Shown here one piece after another: positions 4,276 to 27,993 of a stretch of DNA of 30,248 nt. The notes below the pieces were generated by a model that was not told the DNA's origin, made no database searches, and was given only the letters and a program-made list of their open reading frames with translations. The translations under genes and the position numbers were made by a program. Origin of the DNA: a virus; IMG/VR virus record IMGVR_UViG_3300008954_000187, positions 1 through 30,248 of that record; one strand, given 5' to 3'. Position 1 is the stretch's first letter. The number at the start of each line of letters is the position of its first letter.

Positions 4276-4464
4276 TTATCCGGCGTTCTTAGTCTCTTGT
4301 ACTTCTGCGCGCAGTTCTTGAGCCAATGCTTTTACTTCTTGCATTGCCTTACGAACACGCGTTCCTGCAGCATTGTTGCCGCGTTCAAAAAACTTTTCGT
4401 GATCATCACGAGTTTCCTCAAGCAACACGATTAGCTCCTCAAGTAGATTCGTTCCGTTAGTCAT
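4276..4464 (-). CDS. Histone H1-like Hc1-family DNA-binding protein (62 aa)
   Basis: This small protein carries the hallmark of the Hc1 family: FFERGNNAAGTRVRKAMQEV followed by KALAQELR (about residues 25-52). The G-N-x-A-A-G-T-R-x-R-K core is shared with chlamydial Hc1 and with the small H1-like proteins common in Bacteroidota and some phages. Known members bind DNA and compact the nucleoid. An N-terminal amphipathic helix (LLEELIVLLEETRDDHEKFF) precedes the basic stretch. Compared with bacterial Hc1 it lacks the long lysine/alanine C-terminal tail and ends soon after the core. It has a good AAAGGAAG box and sits between the SSB gene and a conserved unknown gene, in a neighbourhood of ssDNA and dsDNA binding proteins. 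Family assignment is by motif recognition. Confidence 0.72.
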   Translation of the reverse strand: MTNGTNLLEELIVLLEETRDDHEKFFERGNNAAGTRVRKAMQEVKALAQELRAEVQETKNAG

Positions 4465-4524: not shown

Positions 4525-5295
4525 TTAGAGAGCGCCAAGCTCTGCGAAAGCAGCGTCGACGGCATTAGTTTCGCCGTCAGTAGTCTTTCCGTACTTCTCT
4601 GTCTCGGTGCTCACTGTTTCAGGATCCTCAACCTGTGAGTTGACAAAAGTATCGAGAATGGTTTGCACATCCGCCGTTGTCTTTCGGTCAAACAAGCCAG
4701 TAAAATCTGGAATACTATCCAGAAGTTCCGCGCACTTCTCAGGGGTCAGATCCTCACAGAGAGGAGAAGACCGACGACGAGGCACGAGCTTCGTCTGAGG
4801 GAAGGATGCGCCCGGGGGCTTTCCATAGGTCATGGTGAGATCGGTACCGGTTTCGGTATCAGTAATGTCGCCATACTCTGGGTTAAGCACGAGGGTGAGA
4901 AGATTCTCATAGGCCGTCTTGCCATAGCCCCATACTCGGACGCCTCGCTCTTCCTCGCCGCGAACCATCACGGGACTGAAGAATCGCTGTCGCACAAAGA
5001 GAGACTTAGCAGTCTTCTTGCTGTGATCATCGTTGTTGTCCACACCCTCGCGCCACAGCTGTGAGGCGAACTCACATACGGGACACTCGTCTCCGTAGTT
5101 GCGCTTGGGGCAGAGGAAACCGCCCTTCTCGACGTTGTAATGGAACCACATCTCCTTGAAGGGGTCACCATCCGATGTCGGGACGATTCGAATATCCTGG
5201 TCGCCGTCTTCGGGGCGCCAAAAGGTGTCACTTGAGTTACCGTCTCCACGTAGTGACGAGAGCTTTTCTCTCATCTTATCTAAATTAATACCCAT
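4525..5295 (-). CDS. gp32-like single-stranded DNA-binding protein
   Basis: This 256-residue protein is the ssDNA-coating protein of the replication and recombination machinery. The T4 gp32 zinc site is present: H52, C62, C71 and C74 (H-x9-C-x8-C-x2-C), within the segment WFHYNVEKGGFLCP then DECPVCEFA. T4 gp32 uses the same H-C-C-C order with slightly different spacing. The N-terminus (MGINLDKMREKLSSLRG) carries basic residues like the cooperative-binding region of gp32, and the C-terminus (from about 215) is Asp/Glu-rich, the usual docking tail for partner proteins. Length is slightly below T4 gp32 (301). The start has an AAGGAG box. A sigma-70-like promoter inside the upstream gene (5538-5565) could give the extra transcription an abundant SSB needs, and a hairpin lies in its leader. 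Confidence 0.9.
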   Translation of the reverse strand: MGINLDKMREKLSSLRGDGNSSDTFWRPEDGDQDIRIVPTSDGDPFKEMWFHYNVEKGGFLCPKRNYGDECPVCEFASQLWREGVDNNDDHSKKTAKSLFVRQRFFSPVMVRGEEERGVRVWGYGKTAYENLLTLVLNPEYGDITDTETGTDLTMTYGKPPGASFPQTKLVPRRRSSPLCEDLTPEKCAELLDSIPDFTGLFDRKTTADVQTILDTFVNSQVEDPETVSTETEKYGKTTDGETNAVDAAFAELGAL

Positions 5296-5325: not shown

Positions 5326-5347
5326 CGATTAGCAAATATCCTAATCG
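5326..5347 (-). promoter_or_regulatory. Leader hairpin upstream of the gp32-like gene
   Basis: CGATTAG and CTAATCG form a perfect seven-pair stem around an eight-base loop, overlapping the stop of the upstream gene. It lies 30-52 bases before the SSB ATG, followed by an A/U-rich, apparently unstructured stretch containing AAGGAG. T4 gene 32 has a structured leader element (a pseudoknot) followed by an A/U-rich region used for autogenous repression. The arrangement here is similar, but I find no second pairing that would complete a pseudoknot. Confidence 0.35.
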
Positions 5348-6180
5348 CCTAAAAGTTCTGCATATGATTGTACCATAGATGAATACTTAACGCAATAACA
5401 ATATTTTTGATCATAGGTTGTCTGAAACACGCCATATGATATATTAACATCCTCATCGAGACGCGACTTTACATAGTCGGTTATCTTTCTAAACAAAGTG
5501 CCGTCGTCCTTCAAGTCTTCCTCATTGATACCATAATAGTATACCACATCCCGTGCGTGTGTCAAGTCATAAAACCATTTTTCTTCTTCTTCTTCCACAT
5601 CCAAGACGCCCACTGTGGCTATGCGACTTAGGGCGGAGGGCCTAATAAAATTCCCAATAATGGGTTCCGAATTTTTAAAAACATTAATCATGTGAACTGT
5701 GTTAGCAATTGCTTGGTTGAGAACACCTGAATACCCGAGAATTGGCACGTCTCCAATTCCTTTCTCCACCAACAAATTGTCGATTAGATAGACGTTCTCT
5801 ATCACTCCAGACCGCGCATACTCTTGCAAAACATTTTTTACAATCCGTTCTTGCATTTTTTGGGTCTCGCTCAAAAGTGCCAAATCGGGTTGAATGTACA
5901 TTACCGATACCGTGTTGCCCTTGAGCTGCTCTAGGAGCCGCATTGTTCCTCCGGATATTAAGCCGCTTCCTCCTACAATCACTGTAACATCTTCATTGGA
6001 AAACTTAAGCTTCTTTTTGAGAGAAGGAAAGTGCTTTTCATAAGCCTCATGGCTCGTGCGTTTTTTTATAGTAATGTCTGCGTCTGAGGAAGTATCAATA
6101 CCATAAGTTTTATATTGAGGGAACTTCGCAAACACGCGTGCCAGGTTGCATCCGGCTTTCCCAAGCCCAACGATTATCAT
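5341..6180 (-). CDS. Divergent tubulin/FtsZ-like (or Rossmann-type nucleotide-binding) protein
   Basis: This 279-residue protein starts MIIVGLGKAGCNLARVFAKF, then YGIDTSSDADI and VTVIVGGSGLISGGTMRLLE. The order of glycine loop, a strand ending in an I-D/N-T segment, and a second glycine-rich loop matches the T1, T2 and T4 loops of FtsZ/tubulin. A long helix and the segment ENVYLIDNLLVEK match the FtsZ stretch ending in IVIPNDRLL. The loops are degenerate: GGSGLISGGT stands in place of GGGTGTG, and no clear N-x-D-x-x-D catalytic T7 loop is seen (GNFIRPSALSRIATVG lies there). GTP hydrolysis may therefore be lost or altered. A generic NAD-binding Rossmann fold is the main alternative, since GLGKAG also fits GxGxxG. 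The gene overlaps the MazG-like gene by four bases (ATGA) and precedes the SSB gene. Confidence 0.55.
   Translation of the reverse strand: MIIVGLGKAGCNLARVFAKFPQYKTYGIDTSSDADITIKKRTSHEAYEKHFPSLKKKLKFSNEDVTVIVGGSGLISGGTMRLLEQLKGNTVSVMYIQPDLALLSETQKMQERIVKNVLQEYARSGVIENVYLIDNLLVEKGIGDVPILGYSGVLNQAIANTVHMINVFKNSEPIIGNFIRPSALSRIATVGVLDVEEEEEKWFYDLTHARDVVYYYGINEEDLKDDGTLFRKITDYVKSRLDEDVNISYGVFQTTYDQKYCYCVKYSSMVQSYAELLGD
5538..5565 (-). promoter_or_regulatory. Intragenic sigma-70-type promoter upstream of the SSB gene
   Basis: TTGACA (5565-5560) and TATACT (5543-5538) are separated by 16 bases on the minus strand, inside the coding sequence of the tubulin-like gene, about 240 bases before the gp32-like ATG. 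The same -35/-10 pair is used at 2572-2600. It would give the SSB and Hc1 genes their own transcript. Function is inferred from the match alone. Confidence 0.6.
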
Positions 6181-6500
6181 GAGTCCTCAACCCACTCCAA
6201 AATATAACCCATCTCAAAGCCGCCGCGTAGAACGCGTTTGGAAGTGGCTTCAGCAATGATAGTGTGCTCATGAATACCCAGACGATGGCATATAAAGTTC
6301 ATTATTTCCATAATATCGGCAGCTTCTTTGGCAGAGGGGTTCTCCACAAATTCCTGAACTTCCTCTTGAAGTTTGCGCATAGCATAATCCTTTAGGCGCG
6401 AGCCGCTCGCCTGATGGACCTTAAAATCTTTTCCGTCGGTGTCGATGATCTCGGGAATGCGGTCGCGTACCAGCTTATGATAAAGTTTCTTTTGTTTCAT
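6177..6500 (-). CDS. MazG-like all-alpha NTP pyrophosphohydrolase
   Basis: This 107-residue protein belongs to the MazG/HisE-type all-alpha NTP-PPase superfamily, which hydrolyses (d)NTPs to monophosphates. It begins with the subfamily signature KLYHKLVRDRIPEII, followed by the metal-binding pattern E46-E47-x2-E50 and E59-x2-D62 (LQEEVQEFVEN, AKEAADIMEIM). Phage MazG proteins are thought to clean the nucleotide pool or modulate host alarmone signalling; which applies here cannot be read. It overlaps the polymerase gene upstream and the tubulin-like gene downstream by four bases each (ATGA), so the three are translationally coupled. An additional promoter lies inside the polymerase gene at 6560-6588. 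Confidence 0.85.
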   Translation of the reverse strand: MKQKKLYHKLVRDRIPEIIDTDGKDFKVHQASGSRLKDYAMRKLQEEVQEFVENPSAKEAADIMEIMNFICHRLGIHEHTIIAEATSKRVLRGGFEMGYILEWVEDS

Positions 6501-7696
6501 AATCTTAATTCTTTCATCTCTCCCAGACTTTTGCCAGCCGACACGTTAACTTTAAATATATCATAACGCGTTTTCTTAAAGGTGTCAAGTAAATTTAGAA
6601 TTTCGTACCGGTCCTCTTCCGCGAGATCAATATAGACTGCGTCGTGGATCAAAAAAGATAGATTACTTTTCATCCCCCTCAAAAGCTCATAGATTTTGAA
6701 CGCTTGCTCATGTACCATATCAATGGTTGTGCTCTGAATGATATAATTGAGGGCATGGTGCTCATCAACATCTTTTATTATTCTACCATAGTCGGTTTCA
6801 ATTTTGAAGCCATCCCAGTACTTATTTTTAACGATAACTTTGTTATAGAGAGCCTCTAGCTCTTTATTGACACGCTGAGAGTACAGCCACGCAAACGTCT
6901 TGGTCTTGGCTTGCTCCCTGGTGAGTTCGCCCTTAAAAATATTGCGCACATTCCAATCATGGATGTCGATAGAAGGTTGTTCGTTGCCTGCCAGCGCAAG
7001 GAGGACCCTCAACTCCGCAGCATTAAAATCTAGCTCAACCAACCAATCGTTCTTCGGCTTAACACAGCGTCGGAATTCTTTATTCATCGTTAAAATAGGA
7101 AAAGTATTAGGATTTGTCGCCAGTCGCCCGGTGACAGTGCCCCATGGATTGTAGTCACAGAATGGCTTCGCAGTTCGCAGAGTACGTTGAAAGTTTTGAC
7201 CGCGTACCGAGCTTAAAAGATGGTGGATGGGGGTGGTGTCAATAGAAAGCTCTTGTTCTCGAATGGTAGATAGCATTTCTACCAGGTTATACATAAAGTT
7301 ATAATTCGCAGGACGTCGATAAGTATCTAGTACATGACGAGTAATCTGATTTTTAGCATTTAAATAGCGGAAAAGAAAATATTCCGGGAGAACGTCATAC
7401 AGACAATTTTTCTCCAATGAAAGGCGCGCGGTCTTAAAAGCCTTTAGATGAGCCTTCAAGGTGGTTTTGATTACGTGCCATTCCTCTTTTAAGCCAAGAG
7501 GGCACGCTTGTGTCAATGTCGCTCCGGAAGCATAGATGCGCCCCAGCTCGTACTCGCTTCCAGGAAGATGAGCCGAGTACTCCCACGTCTCCCCCTCTAA
7601 GGGGAGTGCCGAAGATGCATCAATCAAGTTGTTAGCAAAATATCCTACACAATCCTGCTTCGTATCCAGAACTTGAAAAAGCGGAGCTTTATTCAT
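6497..7696 (-). CDS. Short family A DNA polymerase lacking the 3'-5' exonuclease domain
   Basis: This 399-residue protein carries the Pol I palm and fingers motifs: TGRL (189-192), motif A with D223 and E228-L-R (LDFNAAELR), motif B with R260, K264, F268 and Y272 (REQAKTKTFAWLY), the Q321-S-T of the QGT segment, and motif C with H351-D352 (LIHDAVYID). Motif C reads HDA, where Pol I has HDE. The N-terminal 130 residues show no DEDD exonuclease motifs, and the part between motifs B and C is shorter than in Pol I. Proofreading, if any, must come from another gene. T4 uses a family B polymerase, so this is a replacement within a T4-type chassis; Rhodothermus phage RM378 is a known T4-related phage with polymerase and exonuclease on separate genes. 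The ATG is preceded by an in-frame TGA two codons upstream and by no ribosome-binding site, and coincides with the predicted transcription start. Confidence 0.9.
   Translation of the reverse strand: MNKAPLFQVLDTKQDCVGYFANNLIDASSALPLEGETWEYSAHLPGSEYELGRIYASGATLTQACPLGLKEEWHVIKTTLKAHLKAFKTARLSLEKNCLYDVLPEYFLFRYLNAKNQITRHVLDTYRRPANYNFMYNLVEMLSTIREQELSIDTTPIHHLLSSVRGQNFQRTLRTAKPFCDYNPWGTVTGRLATNPNTFPILTMNKEFRRCVKPKNDWLVELDFNAAELRVLLALAGNEQPSIDIHDWNVRNIFKGELTREQAKTKTFAWLYSQRVNKELEALYNKVIVKNKYWDGFKIETDYGRIIKDVDEHHALNYIIQSTTIDMVHEQAFKIYELLRGMKSNLSFLIHDAVYIDLAEEDRYEILNLLDTFKKTRYDIFKVNVSAGKSLGEMKELRL
6560..6588 (-). promoter_or_regulatory. Intragenic sigma-70-type promoter upstream of the MazG-like gene
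   Basis: TTGACA (6588-6583), a 17-base spacer and TATGAT (6565-6560) lie on the minus strand inside the 3' end of the polymerase gene. The predicted start near 6553 is about 50 bases before the MazG-like ATG at 6500. It matches consensus at eleven of twelve positions. It would uncouple expression of the MazG-like, tubulin-like and SSB genes from the polymerase. Confidence 0.65.
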
Positions 7697-20687: not shown

Positions 20688-23618
20688 TTAGTCGACGAAA
20701 GATGCTCCAGTTCGTGTAATGTTAAAGTCTATTGCAATAAACTCAATAGCTCTAGTCGGCTTCAGGAAGATCTGAGCATAGAGAATATTTCTATCAATCA
20801 GCTCAGGAGTGGTCGTTGTTTCGTCCAAGATCACCTTAAACTCAGTAAGACCAAATCGTGTCTGCACAGAAGCCAAGAATGGATTAACCTGACCCAAGAA
20901 CCGATCCCAAGTAACCTGTACATTGGGAGAGAACAGCAATCGGGAAGCAATCTGCGAAATTCGCTTCTTCAGGAAGATCATGAGCCTGCGCACGTTAATA
21001 CGGTCAAGGGCTGATGGAGTCACCTGAAGGGTCTTCTGACCAAAGATCACAATTCCTTCTGCCGGGAACTTGGCAATGGGGTTAATATTGGCCTCGTATA
21101 GGTCGTCTCGATCGACGCGTCGCAACTGGTGCGAGACGTCCACCACGGGGATGCCTGCAGCACCTTCCGTAAGACCACCGCGATTGAAGCCTGCCGGAGC
21201 AAACCAAACCTCACTCTTCTGCTGTGAGCTAGAGAAGGTACCAATCGCAGCAACAGAGGGCGGTAACCACACAAAGTTGCCACGGATCGTGTCTCTGGCG
21301 CGTACCCACGGGTAGAAGGCACAGCCATAAGAAGAGTTAATTGCACGGTCTCGCAAATTATTAACTACAGTCTTCAAATCGGAGGCCGTATTGTTTCGGG
21401 CGATCGCTGTGGCATCCGCACGAGGCTGGAATCCTCCCCTAAGGTCGATAACTGCCAAAGCATCTGCGCGCTCTTCACAAACATTAAGCAAGTGTTGCGT
21501 GAGACCTTCGTGAGTAAGACCCGGAACGGATGCAAGATTCATTTCGACCACTTCGGGGTCTGCAAGAGAATCAATAGCCCTCTTGATGGAGTTGAATTGA
21601 TAACTGTTCTGTTCAGTAATACCATCGATACCATTAAGGAGGCGACTGTTGAACGGATCCATCTCAGTAATATCGAGTCCGTCGAAACCACCATAAAGTG
21701 GAACCGTAAAACGATCAAAGCCGCGATCAAGGACGCCCGAAACTGCACCACTCTGGTTAGTGAGGGACGTTCCAGCGGCATGTGAGCCAGACACCCACTC
21801 GGCAAATTGCCCGGAGCCACTAACATCATCAAGCGAGAAGAACATTGAGAGTTCACGCTGCCCGGAGGACGCGCCGCCGAACATGTTGGTGACAATTCCG
21901 CCGCGCGCCATCAAAAGATCAATGGTCGAGTCGTCAAAGGTGGTACTGCCCGTTGTGCGTGTAGTCTGAAGTCCAAAATACGCGTCGGTTGCTACCGCAA
22001 GATTGCCTGCTGAAGCGCTGACACGAAGCTCTGGCGCAGGATAAAGCACCGAAGCCGTGATATGAGAACCGCTAACTACAAATACATTCTCAGCCATGAT
22101 CGTTGACATACCGTCGAAAGTACCCGAGGCAGACCCCGAAAAGCGACCGGAGCCGACGATCGTGCCGGTAACCCAGTTGCCACCAGTAGCGCTGGCGGAC
22201 ATAATCGTTGTGTCATCCGCGTACTTAACAATTCCCTTAAAACCAAAGGGAAGAACGGTAGCATTAATACCATAATTTTCAACGTTGCTGGCCATACCCA
22301 CTCGAATATAGTTGGAGCGGTTATCCCAGTCTCCTGAAACCTTATAGCGACGTTCCGCACTCACCCAAGTTCGGCGACGGTCGCCCACTAAGCGGGCTAC
22401 ATAGTTAAGAGAATCTGGATTTAGGTTGCAATTATCAAATTTTTCGACAACCTTGACTACATTATCACTATCATCGAGCTTTCTAATAACAATACTGAAG
22501 CTTCCATAAGCATTAGACTCGTTAGAAGAGGCCTTAATGTCCTGAATTGAAACTTTAAGGTTCTTGTTGGTCCACGCGCCAGGCTGTTCTAAAGCATGAA
22601 TCGTAAACAAAGTGGGCATTGTCGTAATATTGAAGTTGTTTGCGGCTGTTCCGCGCTCCGCGGTATCAGAGCCAATAATCGCAGGAGTCTGTGCATTCTG
22701 CAACGGATCGTCATGCGACACGCCAACGTTGGTCCCTCCATTGTTGTCCAACTGAACGACAGCGGCCCACGTGGTGCTAGCCGTAATGTTTGCTTTCAGG
22801 TGGCGATCAAAAGTTTCGCCTAACCAATAATTGTCAGCTGTTTCCGTAATGGTTCCGTTAGTAGCTTGAGGATTGGTATTGAAAACCTTTCTAATATACT
22901 TAGAATCCGCGCGAGTGAAATTGAAAGAGGAAGTAAGTCCCGTAGTCGACGTCGCATCAGAAACAACCATCTTGAATTCATAGGGAACGCCCGTATCTTG
23001 AACAATTACGGAGGAACCTGATGCAGGGGGGCCGGCGTACGCTGTGACCGCGTCGGTACCCAGAATATTGCCTGAGAGCCAAAGATTAGTACTAGCACCT
23101 ACCGTGTAAAAAATTGCAGCGAGGGCGCCCTGCATGGAACCGGAACCGCCATCGGTATAACTACCACTCGCCCCGGCAGGACCTTTCCACTTAGAGCCAC
23201 TAGCGTACTGGGGCTCGAAGACAACGAGGCCCCAGGCCTGTCCGTTGTCACCACCGCTCCAGCCAGCGTCTCCTTCGCCTGTAAGGGTGCCGTCGGCTTC
23301 GGCGCCGAGGAGTCTCACATAAGTTAGAGGGGAGCTATTTTTGAGATATGCCTGTGCAGCATATCCGCCGTAAGTAGGGGCCGTTGTGTTGGCACCCACG
23401 CGCCAAACATCGGAGCCGCCGTCGCCGGGGCTTGGGGCACCAAAAACATTAACAAAGTCTTCAAACGATTCGACCTGTACTGGGCGGAGGCCCGGGCCTT
23501 TTTCGGCGCGGCCTATAATAACGGGACCAATGCCCGCTGGCGATGCGGGAATCTGCGAATTATCGATCTCGTTAACGAAGACCCCCGGTGAAACGAATCT
23601 AAAGTTTTTAACTGACAT
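20688..23618 (-). CDS. Contractile tail sheath protein (gp18-like), enlarged
   Basis: The N-terminus is diagnostic: FVSPGVFVNEIDNSQIP, then GIGPVIIGRAEKGPGLRPVQ and SFEDFVNVFG. The C-terminal part also fits the family (SVPGLTHEGLTQHLLNVCE, then FYPWVRARD, FGQKTLQ and RINVRRLMIFLKKRI), giving the conserved handshake and core domains. At 976 residues it is about 300 longer than T4 gp18 (659). The additional length is a Ser/Gly/Thr-rich middle region (about 100-620), probably one or more surface domains. The sheath surrounds the tube and contracts to drive it through the cell envelope. The start has a GAGGAGAG box. Upstream are a CTATTTA motif and a short hairpin, so this highly expressed gene probably has its own late promoter. 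Confidence 0.95.
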   Translation of the reverse strand: MSVKNFRFVSPGVFVNEIDNSQIPASPAGIGPVIIGRAEKGPGLRPVQVESFEDFVNVFGAPSPGDGGSDVWRVGANTTAPTYGGYAAQAYLKNSSPLTYVRLLGAEADGTLTGEGDAGWSGGDNGQAWGLVVFEPQYASGSKWKGPAGASGSYTDGGSGSMQGALAAIFYTVGASTNLWLSGNILGTDAVTAYAGPPASGSSVIVQDTGVPYEFKMVVSDATSTTGLTSSFNFTRADSKYIRKVFNTNPQATNGTITETADNYWLGETFDRHLKANITASTTWAAVVQLDNNGGTNVGVSHDDPLQNAQTPAIIGSDTAERGTAANNFNITTMPTLFTIHALEQPGAWTNKNLKVSIQDIKASSNESNAYGSFSIVIRKLDDSDNVVKVVEKFDNCNLNPDSLNYVARLVGDRRRTWVSAERRYKVSGDWDNRSNYIRVGMASNVENYGINATVLPFGFKGIVKYADDTTIMSASATGGNWVTGTIVGSGRFSGSASGTFDGMSTIMAENVFVVSGSHITASVLYPAPELRVSASAGNLAVATDAYFGLQTTRTTGSTTFDDSTIDLLMARGGIVTNMFGGASSGQRELSMFFSLDDVSGSGQFAEWVSGSHAAGTSLTNQSGAVSGVLDRGFDRFTVPLYGGFDGLDITEMDPFNSRLLNGIDGITEQNSYQFNSIKRAIDSLADPEVVEMNLASVPGLTHEGLTQHLLNVCEERADALAVIDLRGGFQPRADATAIARNNTASDLKTVVNNLRDRAINSSYGCAFYPWVRARDTIRGNFVWLPPSVAAIGTFSSSQQKSEVWFAPAGFNRGGLTEGAAGIPVVDVSHQLRRVDRDDLYEANINPIAKFPAEGIVIFGQKTLQVTPSALDRINVRRLMIFLKKRISQIASRLLFSPNVQVTWDRFLGQVNPFLASVQTRFGLTEFKVILDETTTTPELIDRNILYAQIFLKPTRAIEFIAIDFNITRTGASFVD

Positions 23619-26154: not shown

Positions 26155-27993
26155 CTAGACTAGATCGCTAACGACCACCAGTCCGTACATATCAGGACGG
26201 ACCATCTTCTTGGCGTATCGAGTCATGACTCCCTTGCGGGGCACGAAATCTTCAACACCGAAGATTGTTGGCGTAGTCTGCAGTGGCACGTACGGAGCGT
26301 AAACGTAGCCGCTCTCAAGGAAGCTACCTCCACGTCGGCCAACGAGGACCAAACTACGTGGGAAGTAAGGATCGACATAGATGTCGAACTTCTTGGAAAG
26401 CGAACCGACCTTCACGGTTCCGATATCACCACGATCGCTATCAGCCGTCACGTTAGCGCGGAAACCAGCGGTGAACTCAAGGATGTTGGCAACTTCAGGT
26501 CCGCAGACGACGAAGTTGGCAGCACCGCGAAGAGTCTTGCGGTGGATCTGGGCAGAAACATCGTTGATTGTCTCAACGAGAGTCTCATACCACTCACTAA
26601 CGTTACCAGTGAAGTCAGGAGTTGTCGACCCACCAACCTCTACACCGGTTTCCCGGTTGACAAAGCGACCAGCAGCGCGAGACCAGTAGCGAACACCGGC
26701 CGTGGAACCACGGACGAGATCCTCAACAATCTCACGATCGATCTCAAGGGCAATCTGCTCAGACAGAATCTGAGTAAGCTCAACCTCAGCATCAAGGTTG
26801 TGGTAGGCGTTAAGATCTTGTCCTAACTCCGGGGTCCACTTCGCCTTGAGCTTCTTGGTGACAGCCGTGACAGCCACCGAATCGACCTTGATGTCGATCT
26901 CGGGGATGTTTGGACTACCTTCGAGTCCCCACTCAGCACCACCGATAACAGAACCGAGAGCTCCGCCATTGTCGAAGTCATCAGTCTCGGGGTAGGACCA
27001 AGTGTTAGCCGCTGCGGCACCACCTGTAACCTGCTGCGCAACCGCGCTGTTGCCGCCTTCGGTCATCATGCTAGCGTCGGTAGACGCGAAGACAAAGATG
27101 ACGTAGTTCGACGTGCGATCGCCCACAGCTCCACCATTTGAGGAAGAACCAAACTGCGTTAGGCGGCGCGCGACGCGCACAATGCCTGCCGCTGCATTAC
27201 CGGAAGCATCCAGAATGTTAAAGCCGCCGTGGCCAGCCGTACCAGAAACCTGGATAGCAACGAGATCGTCCAGATTGAGGCGTCGACCTTCAGTATCGAA
27301 GTTCGATACCAAAGTCTCAGCAACAACCACAGACGAACCGGAGAGATCCGGGTCAAACTGGGTCAATGAACCAAGGGTGACATGACTGTCAACGCCGCTG
27401 ACACTACCCGTCTTGGTGTTCTGGGATCCGGCAGTTCCGGAAACAATAACACGCCACGAGGTACCTGCAAGCGTAGTCGAACCTGTCGGAGACGCATAGC
27501 CATTATTCAGGGCATATGGTCCCTGCTGCGGGAGTGCACCCGAAGCCAGATTCACACCACCGGTGATCTGCGCACCGACCACGCCGCCACCGTAGAGTGA
27601 CGAAGATGCCGGATAACCCAAACGACCGAAAGTGGTAGAGTCATCTCCAATTTCGTTGGACACAGTAAAGTCCAGGAAGAAGATCAGCCCAGAGGGCAGA
27701 CTCATGGGTTGAACGCTAACGAGATCGTTGGCGATCAGGGAGCCGAATACACGGCGAACGAGGGGAAATGCAACAGCTGCAAAGCCCTCAACGTCTCCAG
27801 CTTGCATACTGGAAGACTCACGGAGAAGCTCTTTAGCCTGATTTTCAAGCAGTCGAGCCATACCGTTCCGAACCGTATCATCACCGAGACCCTCTAAAAG
27901 GCCGGTACTTTCCCACTTATTGATAAGTGTAGCACCTTCCTTCGCGAGATCACGATTAACAATACCTTCGGTTAATTTTTGTATGATAGACAT
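26155..27993 (-). CDS. Major capsid protein (gp23-like)
   Basis: This 612-residue protein matches the T4 gp23 family. LINKWESTGLLEGL aligns with LLNKWKPLLEG of gp23, LLENQAKELL with its ENQ segment, and VRRVFGSLIANDLVSVQPMS with VRRAIPNLIAFDICGVQPM. The C-terminal DIYVDPYF, RRGGSFLESGYVYAPYVPLQ and MTRYAKKMV segments fit the end of the HK97-type fold. It is longer than gp23 (521), with a Gly/Ser/Ala-rich insertion (about 125-330) probably exposed on the capsid surface. A sequence LRE-SSS at residues 57-62 resembles the (L/I)-x-E cleavage site of T4 prohead protease near residue 65 of gp23. AAAGGAGG precedes the ATG, and a strong terminator follows the gene. Together these predict a very abundant product. 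Confidence 0.95.
   Translation of the reverse strand: MSIIQKLTEGIVNRDLAKEGATLINKWESTGLLEGLGDDTVRNGMARLLENQAKELLRESSSMQAGDVEGFAAVAFPLVRRVFGSLIANDLVSVQPMSLPSGLIFFLDFTVSNEIGDDSTTFGRLGYPASSSLYGGGVVGAQITGGVNLASGALPQQGPYALNNGYASPTGSTTLAGTSWRVIVSGTAGSQNTKTGSVSGVDSHVTLGSLTQFDPDLSGSSVVVAETLVSNFDTEGRRLNLDDLVAIQVSGTAGHGGFNILDASGNAAAGIVRVARRLTQFGSSSNGGAVGDRTSNYVIFVFASTDASMMTEGGNSAVAQQVTGGAAAANTWSYPETDDFDNGGALGSVIGGAEWGLEGSPNIPEIDIKVDSVAVTAVTKKLKAKWTPELGQDLNAYHNLDAEVELTQILSEQIALEIDREIVEDLVRGSTAGVRYWSRAAGRFVNRETGVEVGGSTTPDFTGNVSEWYETLVETINDVSAQIHRKTLRGAANFVVCGPEVANILEFTAGFRANVTADSDRGDIGTVKVGSLSKKFDIYVDPYFPRSLVLVGRRGGSFLESGYVYAPYVPLQTTPTIFGVEDFVPRKGVMTRYAKKMVRPDMYGLVVVSDLV

Follow-up and report, generated by a model that had tools for sequence, protein, structure and literature searches.

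The window, by which we mean the whole stretch of DNA that was analysed, is a complete IMG/VR record, a fragment of 30,248 bases from a contractile-tailed phage whose sheath, tube, baseplate and capsid genes lie farther along the window. Two of its structural proteins are unusually long, namely the tail sheath (976 aa; 20688-23618, minus strand) and the major head protein (612 aa; 26155-27993, minus strand), and for both the family match concerns mainly the C-terminal part. An Rfam search of the window gave no match. A sequence-only reading of this DNA had proposed that a divergent tubulin/FtsZ-like protein is encoded at positions 5341-6180. This region indeed contains a real open reading frame, which starts with an ATG codon, is located on the minus strand and encodes a protein of 279 aa that we named TUB; the plus strand of the same region carries no long frame and has stop codons throughout.

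The genes flanking TUB are also on the minus strand. The next gene downstream encodes a gp32-like SSB (4525-5295; PF08804, E 2e-14), in agreement with the earlier placement of the gene upstream of SSB. Upstream of TUB are a gene for a 107 aa protein (6177-6500) and polA (6497-7696), which encodes a compact family-A DNA polymerase of 399 aa (PF00476, E 7.8e-15). The Pfam match of this polymerase spans the palm and fingers, and no exonuclease domain was matched by Pfam or PHROG. Overlaps of 4 nt are present at the junctions of polA with the 107 aa gene and of the 107 aa gene with the start of TUB, and the SSB gene starts 45 nt after TUB. The 107 aa protein had been named MazG-like, but this name found no support, as neither Pfam (window protein and eight relatives) nor the PDB gave a match to MazG or PRA-PH. 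Other neighbours in the window identified by Pfam are DnaB_C (3.6e-19), a 5'-3' exonuclease (3.1e-26) and RecA/UvsX (5.7e-37). In addition, a 62 aa histone H1-like Hc1 protein (PF07432, E 6.7e-22) is encoded between SSB and UvsX (4276-4464, minus strand).

All four short segments on which the tubulin/FtsZ proposal was based are present in TUB. These are a T1-type glycine loop, GLGKAGCN (residues 5-12; 6145-6168, minus strand), which in the predicted structure is located between a strand (2-6) and a helix (7-17); a T2-type segment, GIDTSSD (residues 27-33; 6082-6102, minus strand), which is like the IDTS of PhuZ; a T4-type loop, GGSGLISGGT (residues 70-79; 5944-5973, minus strand); and YLIDNLL (residues 131-137; 5770-5790, minus strand), corresponding to strand S6 and the start of helix H6. 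Two more elements are the presumed base-contacting residue N155 in the central helix H7 (5716-5718, minus strand) and the T7-equivalent loop (residues 170-186; 5623-5673, minus strand).

Database searches with the single TUB protein did not yield significant matches in Pfam and PHROG (best E 0.054-0.22) and yielded none in the PDB. An initial scan of IMG/VR resulted in 78 loci encoding TUB, 51 of which were combined with the window in an alignment of 52 rows (A1). A search with A1 retrieved at least 566 relatives among 599 stretches; with a profile headed by L077, a divergent member, at least 590 among 600 were retrieved. In the pooled set, a TUB match was present in 226 of 231 loci; 214 of these genes are full length, and they encode 148 distinct proteins of 272-292 aa whose identity to the window protein goes down to 33%. 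The longest contigs bearing TUB are 147-204 kb. No relatives were detected in 50,697 phage records (tblastn, with three family members as queries), and none was among the 25 pattern matches obtained in GTDB genome contigs. In the collections searched, the family is therefore known only from uncultured phages. Microcystis phage Mel-JY01, which encodes a distant UvsX (34%) and a gp32-like SSB, was considered as a cultured source, but the gene preceding its SSB encodes an unrelated protein of 428 aa with an S-AdoMet lyase-like match. psbA, as a sign of a cyanophage, was found in none of 15 long contigs, and no tRNAs were found in 100 kb of one related contig.

At the sequence level, the homology of TUB to tubulin and FtsZ is weak. 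The Pfam Tubulin profile touched only 3 of the 52 members (best E 0.011) and was found in none of 7 records of the TUB phage group; in the records searched, TUB is present as a single copy and canonical tubulin is absent. The TUB profile gave only chance matches in the PDB (E 0.8 and worse), and E. coli FtsZ used as a query gave no pattern match in IMG/VR and, in genomes, only enterobacterial and related FtsZ proteins. In profile comparisons with hhalign, TUB was aligned with PhuZ at 70% probability (E 4.1e-5), although only over residues 3-96 (T1 to S5) and with a probability of 3% (E 0.0049) in global mode, whereas the alignments with E. coli FtsZ (0.35) and with an FtsZ profile (0.14) were not significant.

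The AlphaFold2 model of the window protein, based on A1, has a pLDDT of 91.6 and a pTM of 0.90. A second model was made for the relative L077, which is about 34% identical to the window protein, from a separate alignment of 14 rows that shares members with A1 (pLDDT 89.6). When the window model was compared with the PDB using Foldseek, the top rows were all FtsZ (E 1.2e-13, probability 1.00), and 585 matches had an E value of 0.001 or lower. The highest VIA Z scores were those to CetZ (24.7; 255 residues aligned, rmsd 3.0) and CetZ2 (23.9), followed by TubZ (22.5), FtsZ (22.4) and tubulin (about 21). The L077 model gave very similar values (VIA Z 24.4 to CetZ; Foldseek FtsZ, E 1.0e-13). Both models thus align over the whole chain with FtsZ, CetZ, TubZ and tubulin (Z 21-25), and they predict that TUB has a complete two-domain tubulin/FtsZ fold, as the sequence-only reading had supposed. 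Among the 50 matches listed in each case, there was no dehydrogenase or ThiF-like chain, the kind of match that had been named beforehand as refuting the tubulin proposal.

We then considered which residues of the fold are conserved in the 148 distinct homologues. In the T1 loop, kept as GLGxAG, G5 and G7 are present in all 148 members and G10 in 147. The T4 loop is kept as GxGx[IV][ST][GA], with G71 conserved in 142 members, G73 in 134, I or V at position 75 in 144 and S or T at position 76 in 143. Other positions lining the pocket are D29 (145/148), N135 (145/148), Y150 (142/148) and N155 (148/148). N135 is aligned with the N of the FtsZ motif IPND in the hhalign comparison with E. coli FtsZ, an alignment that is itself not significant. 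We take N155 to be the equivalent of N228 of beta-tubulin, and the roles assigned here to N155, Y150 and N135 are presumed from tubulin and FtsZ. The conservation of these positions across 148 distinct homologues implies that the motifs exceed chance. Indeed, the mean weighted entropy of 18 motif positions, a set picked from superfamily motifs after the alignment had been viewed, is 0.87 bit compared with 1.9 elsewhere, and none of 20,000 random sets was equally low. This pattern suggests that the pocket binds a nucleotide, probably a guanine nucleotide.

The elements linked to hydrolysis and filament contacts show a very different picture. The GGGTG[ST]G loop is the signature of the tubulin/FtsZ superfamily, as described in PMC2875224. 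In TUB it is replaced by the family form GxGx[IV]SG: GGGTG[STA]G is present in 0 of 148 members compared with 35 of 35 FtsZ proteins. The same counts were obtained for the FtsZ-type T7 motif N-x-D-x-x-D (0/148 versus 35/35), and so the reported loss of both features holds for all 148 members. A relaxed PhuZ-type T4 pattern matched 6 of 148 TUB members. PhuZ proteins served as a control for T7. Their two T7 Asp columns are invariant (8/8; a loose PhuZ T7 pattern detected seven of the eight), and TUB has no equivalent acid pair. Within residues 166-187 of TUB, any single position carries an acidic residue in at most 113 of 148 members; however, since E172 (113/148) and residue 183 (98/148) are acidic in many of them, a displaced T7 acid is conceivable. 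Moreover, H7 (150-169) and the long strand that comes after it (187-194) are not separated by any helix in the window model, and H8 is likewise absent from the L077 model. In the known members, the filament contact is made by T7, the base of H8 and S9, and the catalytic Asp is supplied by T7 (PMC3678025).

The position of TUB is strictly conserved. Context counts were drawn from the 214 distinct TUB genes, with the exclusion of genes lacking a recognisable GLG start, and near-identical contigs may persist in them. SSB is the next recognised gene downstream in all 163 loci with at least 1,500 bp of downstream sequence, and polA is present upstream in all 140 loci with at least 3,500 bp of upstream sequence. 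The gap between TUB and the preceding recognised gene is 20 nt or less in 185 of 204 cases, and in 126 of these 204 it is an overlap of exactly 4 nt. Coupling to the 107 aa gene had also been pointed out, which is correct for the window, but that gene was detected in only 67 of the 140 loci with room upstream, so that this coupling is not general. We also scanned from the polymerase side, using an anchor made from the polymerases of TUB-bearing phages, which means that the scan covers the same lineage. This resulted in 80 loci; TUB is present in all 71 with sufficient room, and the only two loci without it stop 9 and 463 bp past polA. Hence, polA-TUB-SSB is an obligate operon within the lineage, and TUB is not an accessory gene. 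Beyond SSB, the genes continue in the order SSB-UvsX-exonuclease-DnaB, and loci with room contain UvsX (35/35), the exonuclease (35/35), DnaB (31/35), the Hc1-like gene (11/35) and orf161 (14/35). On contig L106 (6274-7005), pieces of orf161, the Hc1-like gene and SSB are repeated in inverted orientation at the contig end, which is probably an assembly artefact.

Divergence was compared over 126 loci. The mean identity to the window is 49.8% for TUB, 51.1% for polA, 26.9% for orf442 and 69-73% for SSB, UvsX and DnaB; TUB therefore diverges at about the pace of polA, slower than orf442 and faster than SSB, UvsX and DnaB. In 86 non-redundant loci, partial correlations of distances were 0.37 for TUB-polA and 0.36 for TUB-SSB (reached in 0 of 999 permutations each), and -0.02 for TUB-UvsX. 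These values may reflect mere physical linkage, because polA and SSB are adjacent to TUB and UvsX is more distant.

TUB resembles several known proteins, and differs from each of them. Its best VIA matches, the archaeal CetZ proteins (3zid, 4b45), cover the entire two-domain fold (255-258 residues) but are only 15-16% identical to TUB and are longer (330-342 aa), and presumably they have the signature and T7 acids that TUB has lost. FtsZ, the best Foldseek match (E of about 1e-13), has T1, T4, the S6 asparagine and H7 in the same order; TUB differs in being shorter, in lacking H8 in the models and in being located in an operon of replication genes. PhuZ (phiKZ TubZ) is, like TUB, phage-encoded, but its gene in phiKZ neighbours neither a polymerase nor an SSB gene. 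The Bacillus TubZ proteins (4ei7, 2xka) are similar by fold (Z 22.3-23.3). TubZ is described as a plasmid partition GTPase, whereas no partition gene was recognised beside TUB. The best viral structural match, in BFVD, is A0A6J5RW92 ("FtsZ Cell division GTPase", uncultured Caudovirales phage; E 4.2e-12, TM 0.76 on the query), and it is followed by phage proteins already known to be of tubulin type; this protein of 452 aa, compared by its structure model, is 15% identical to TUB. Phage tubulins are tied mainly to nucleus-forming jumbo phages in published surveys (PMC9123017, PMC11835377 and PMC7824862). Because the fold is shared while the signature and the catalytic feature fail, we file TUB as a new tubulin-fold family, outside FtsZ, TubZ and PhuZ.

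The reading that we prefer, with a probability of roughly one half, is that TUB is a replication factor of tubulin fold that binds a nucleotide, probably without hydrolysing it, and works with PolA and SSB. Its pocket would still be occupied by a nucleotide, probably of guanine, and the acid with which one subunit normally completes the catalytic site of the next would be absent, so that hydrolysis would not take place in the usual way. TUB would then be a nucleotide-occupied scaffold or switch, rather than a dynamic cytomotive filament, and would act on the compact PolA and SSB, or next to them, while phage DNA is synthesised. The parts of this proposal differ in strength. A role in replication is most likely because of the strict, translationally coupled position of TUB between the polymerase and SSB, and we regard it as likely overall, although this position could also serve timing or stoichiometry only. 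Nucleotide occupancy, judged from conservation alone, is fairly probable, and the absence of canonical dynamic filaments is favoured with somewhat less confidence. A non-hydrolysing scaffold, one of the options offered previously, is accordingly among the possible forms of TUB. Much more tentatively, TUB might be an integral component of the replisome that docks on the exonuclease-poor PolA and on SSB and does the job of a clamp or a loader. DnaN, the T4 gp45 clamp and the gp59 helicase loader did not score over the cut-off in any of the 15 long contigs searched (G001-G006 and G048-G056; 0/15 each), which is compatible with such a replacement but is a weak negative, because SSB, known to be encoded there, was detected by the same method in no more than 10 of these 15 contigs.

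The main rival is that TUB organises the site of phage replication as a filament or scaffold that is static and does not hydrolyse nucleotide, which would make it an analogue of PhuZ without dynamics and with non-canonical contacts. Both models have the tubulin fold, and known phage tubulins are described as positioning replicating DNA. In addition, PMC4244570 reports that catalytically dead PhuZ makes stable filaments, the D190A variant polymerising with GTP, and since this T7-dead protein still polymerises, loss of the T7 acid leaves filaments possible. On the other hand, the elements of the canonical contact (T7, the base of H8) are absent or shortened in TUB, the chain of the window model ends 12 residues after its last strand and so has no long C-terminal tail, and PhuZ of phiKZ is not linked to a polymerase-SSB operon. 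We consider a static filament possible but doubtful. A further rival, which we consider unlikely, is that the fold now serves an unrelated activity. The new active or ligand site would be formed by a second conserved set of polar residues, located outside the canonical pocket in the terminal parts of H5 and H7 and beyond T7 (Q119, R123, S124 and H163, each 148/148, and R186, 140/148). These residues may be structural, however, and the canonical pocket is conserved to the same degree.

The suggestion that TUB is an FtsZ decoy, that is, a capped, dead FtsZ-like subunit poisoning host division, fits the FtsZ-like fold and the loss of the hydrolysing face. However, a gene for host takeover is expected to come and go, and TUB does not: it is universal in the lineage, fixed in the polA-TUB-SSB operon and diverging at the pace of PolA. 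Moreover, TUB is only 11-18% identical to FtsZ chains, which makes residue-by-residue mimicry of the FtsZ interface unlikely, and we therefore give little credence to a decoy. Finally, an ordinary Rossmann enzyme of the NAD(P) type, the other alternative raised earlier, is hardly tenable: matches to TrkA_N (PF02254) occur in 25 of 52 members at E of 1 or lower (best 8.8e-6), but they fall on differing segments (3-35, 67-103 and 72-114) and are below the curated cut-off in all three of the ten singly listed members that showed them, which we read as a generic beta-alpha glycine loop, and the whole-chain alignments of both models to tubulin-fold structures contradict it.

In our best reading, TUB represents a new branch of the tubulin/FtsZ fold, devoid of the signature, and belongs to the core replication proteins of the phages that encode it. 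A literature search, with most subscription papers and all preprints outside its scope, found no report of a gene of tubulin fold with an invariable place between the polymerase and SSB genes of a phage, and the branch appears new within that literature. The tubulin-fold proteins that have been studied well, whether cellular or phage-encoded, act as filaments. Here, the fold is a strictly retained partner of polymerase and SSB that has lost the parts needed for dynamic filaments; if confirmed, this would be a cytoskeletal fold that has become a replication factor. The lineage counts hundreds of sequenced relatives, with no cultured one found. Surveys of phage tubulins based on HMMs or on the GGGTG[ST]G motif, as described in PMC11835377 and PMC2875224, would overlook such families.

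The SSB proteins of this lineage have a further conserved feature. Their C terminus ends in a conserved tip following an acidic linker, with the sequence AFAELGAL in 46 of 183 distinct SSBs and a similar one in most. Such terminal tips resemble the interaction tips of other SSBs. It is plausible that the tip is a docking peptide, with TUB as no more than a conceivable partner.
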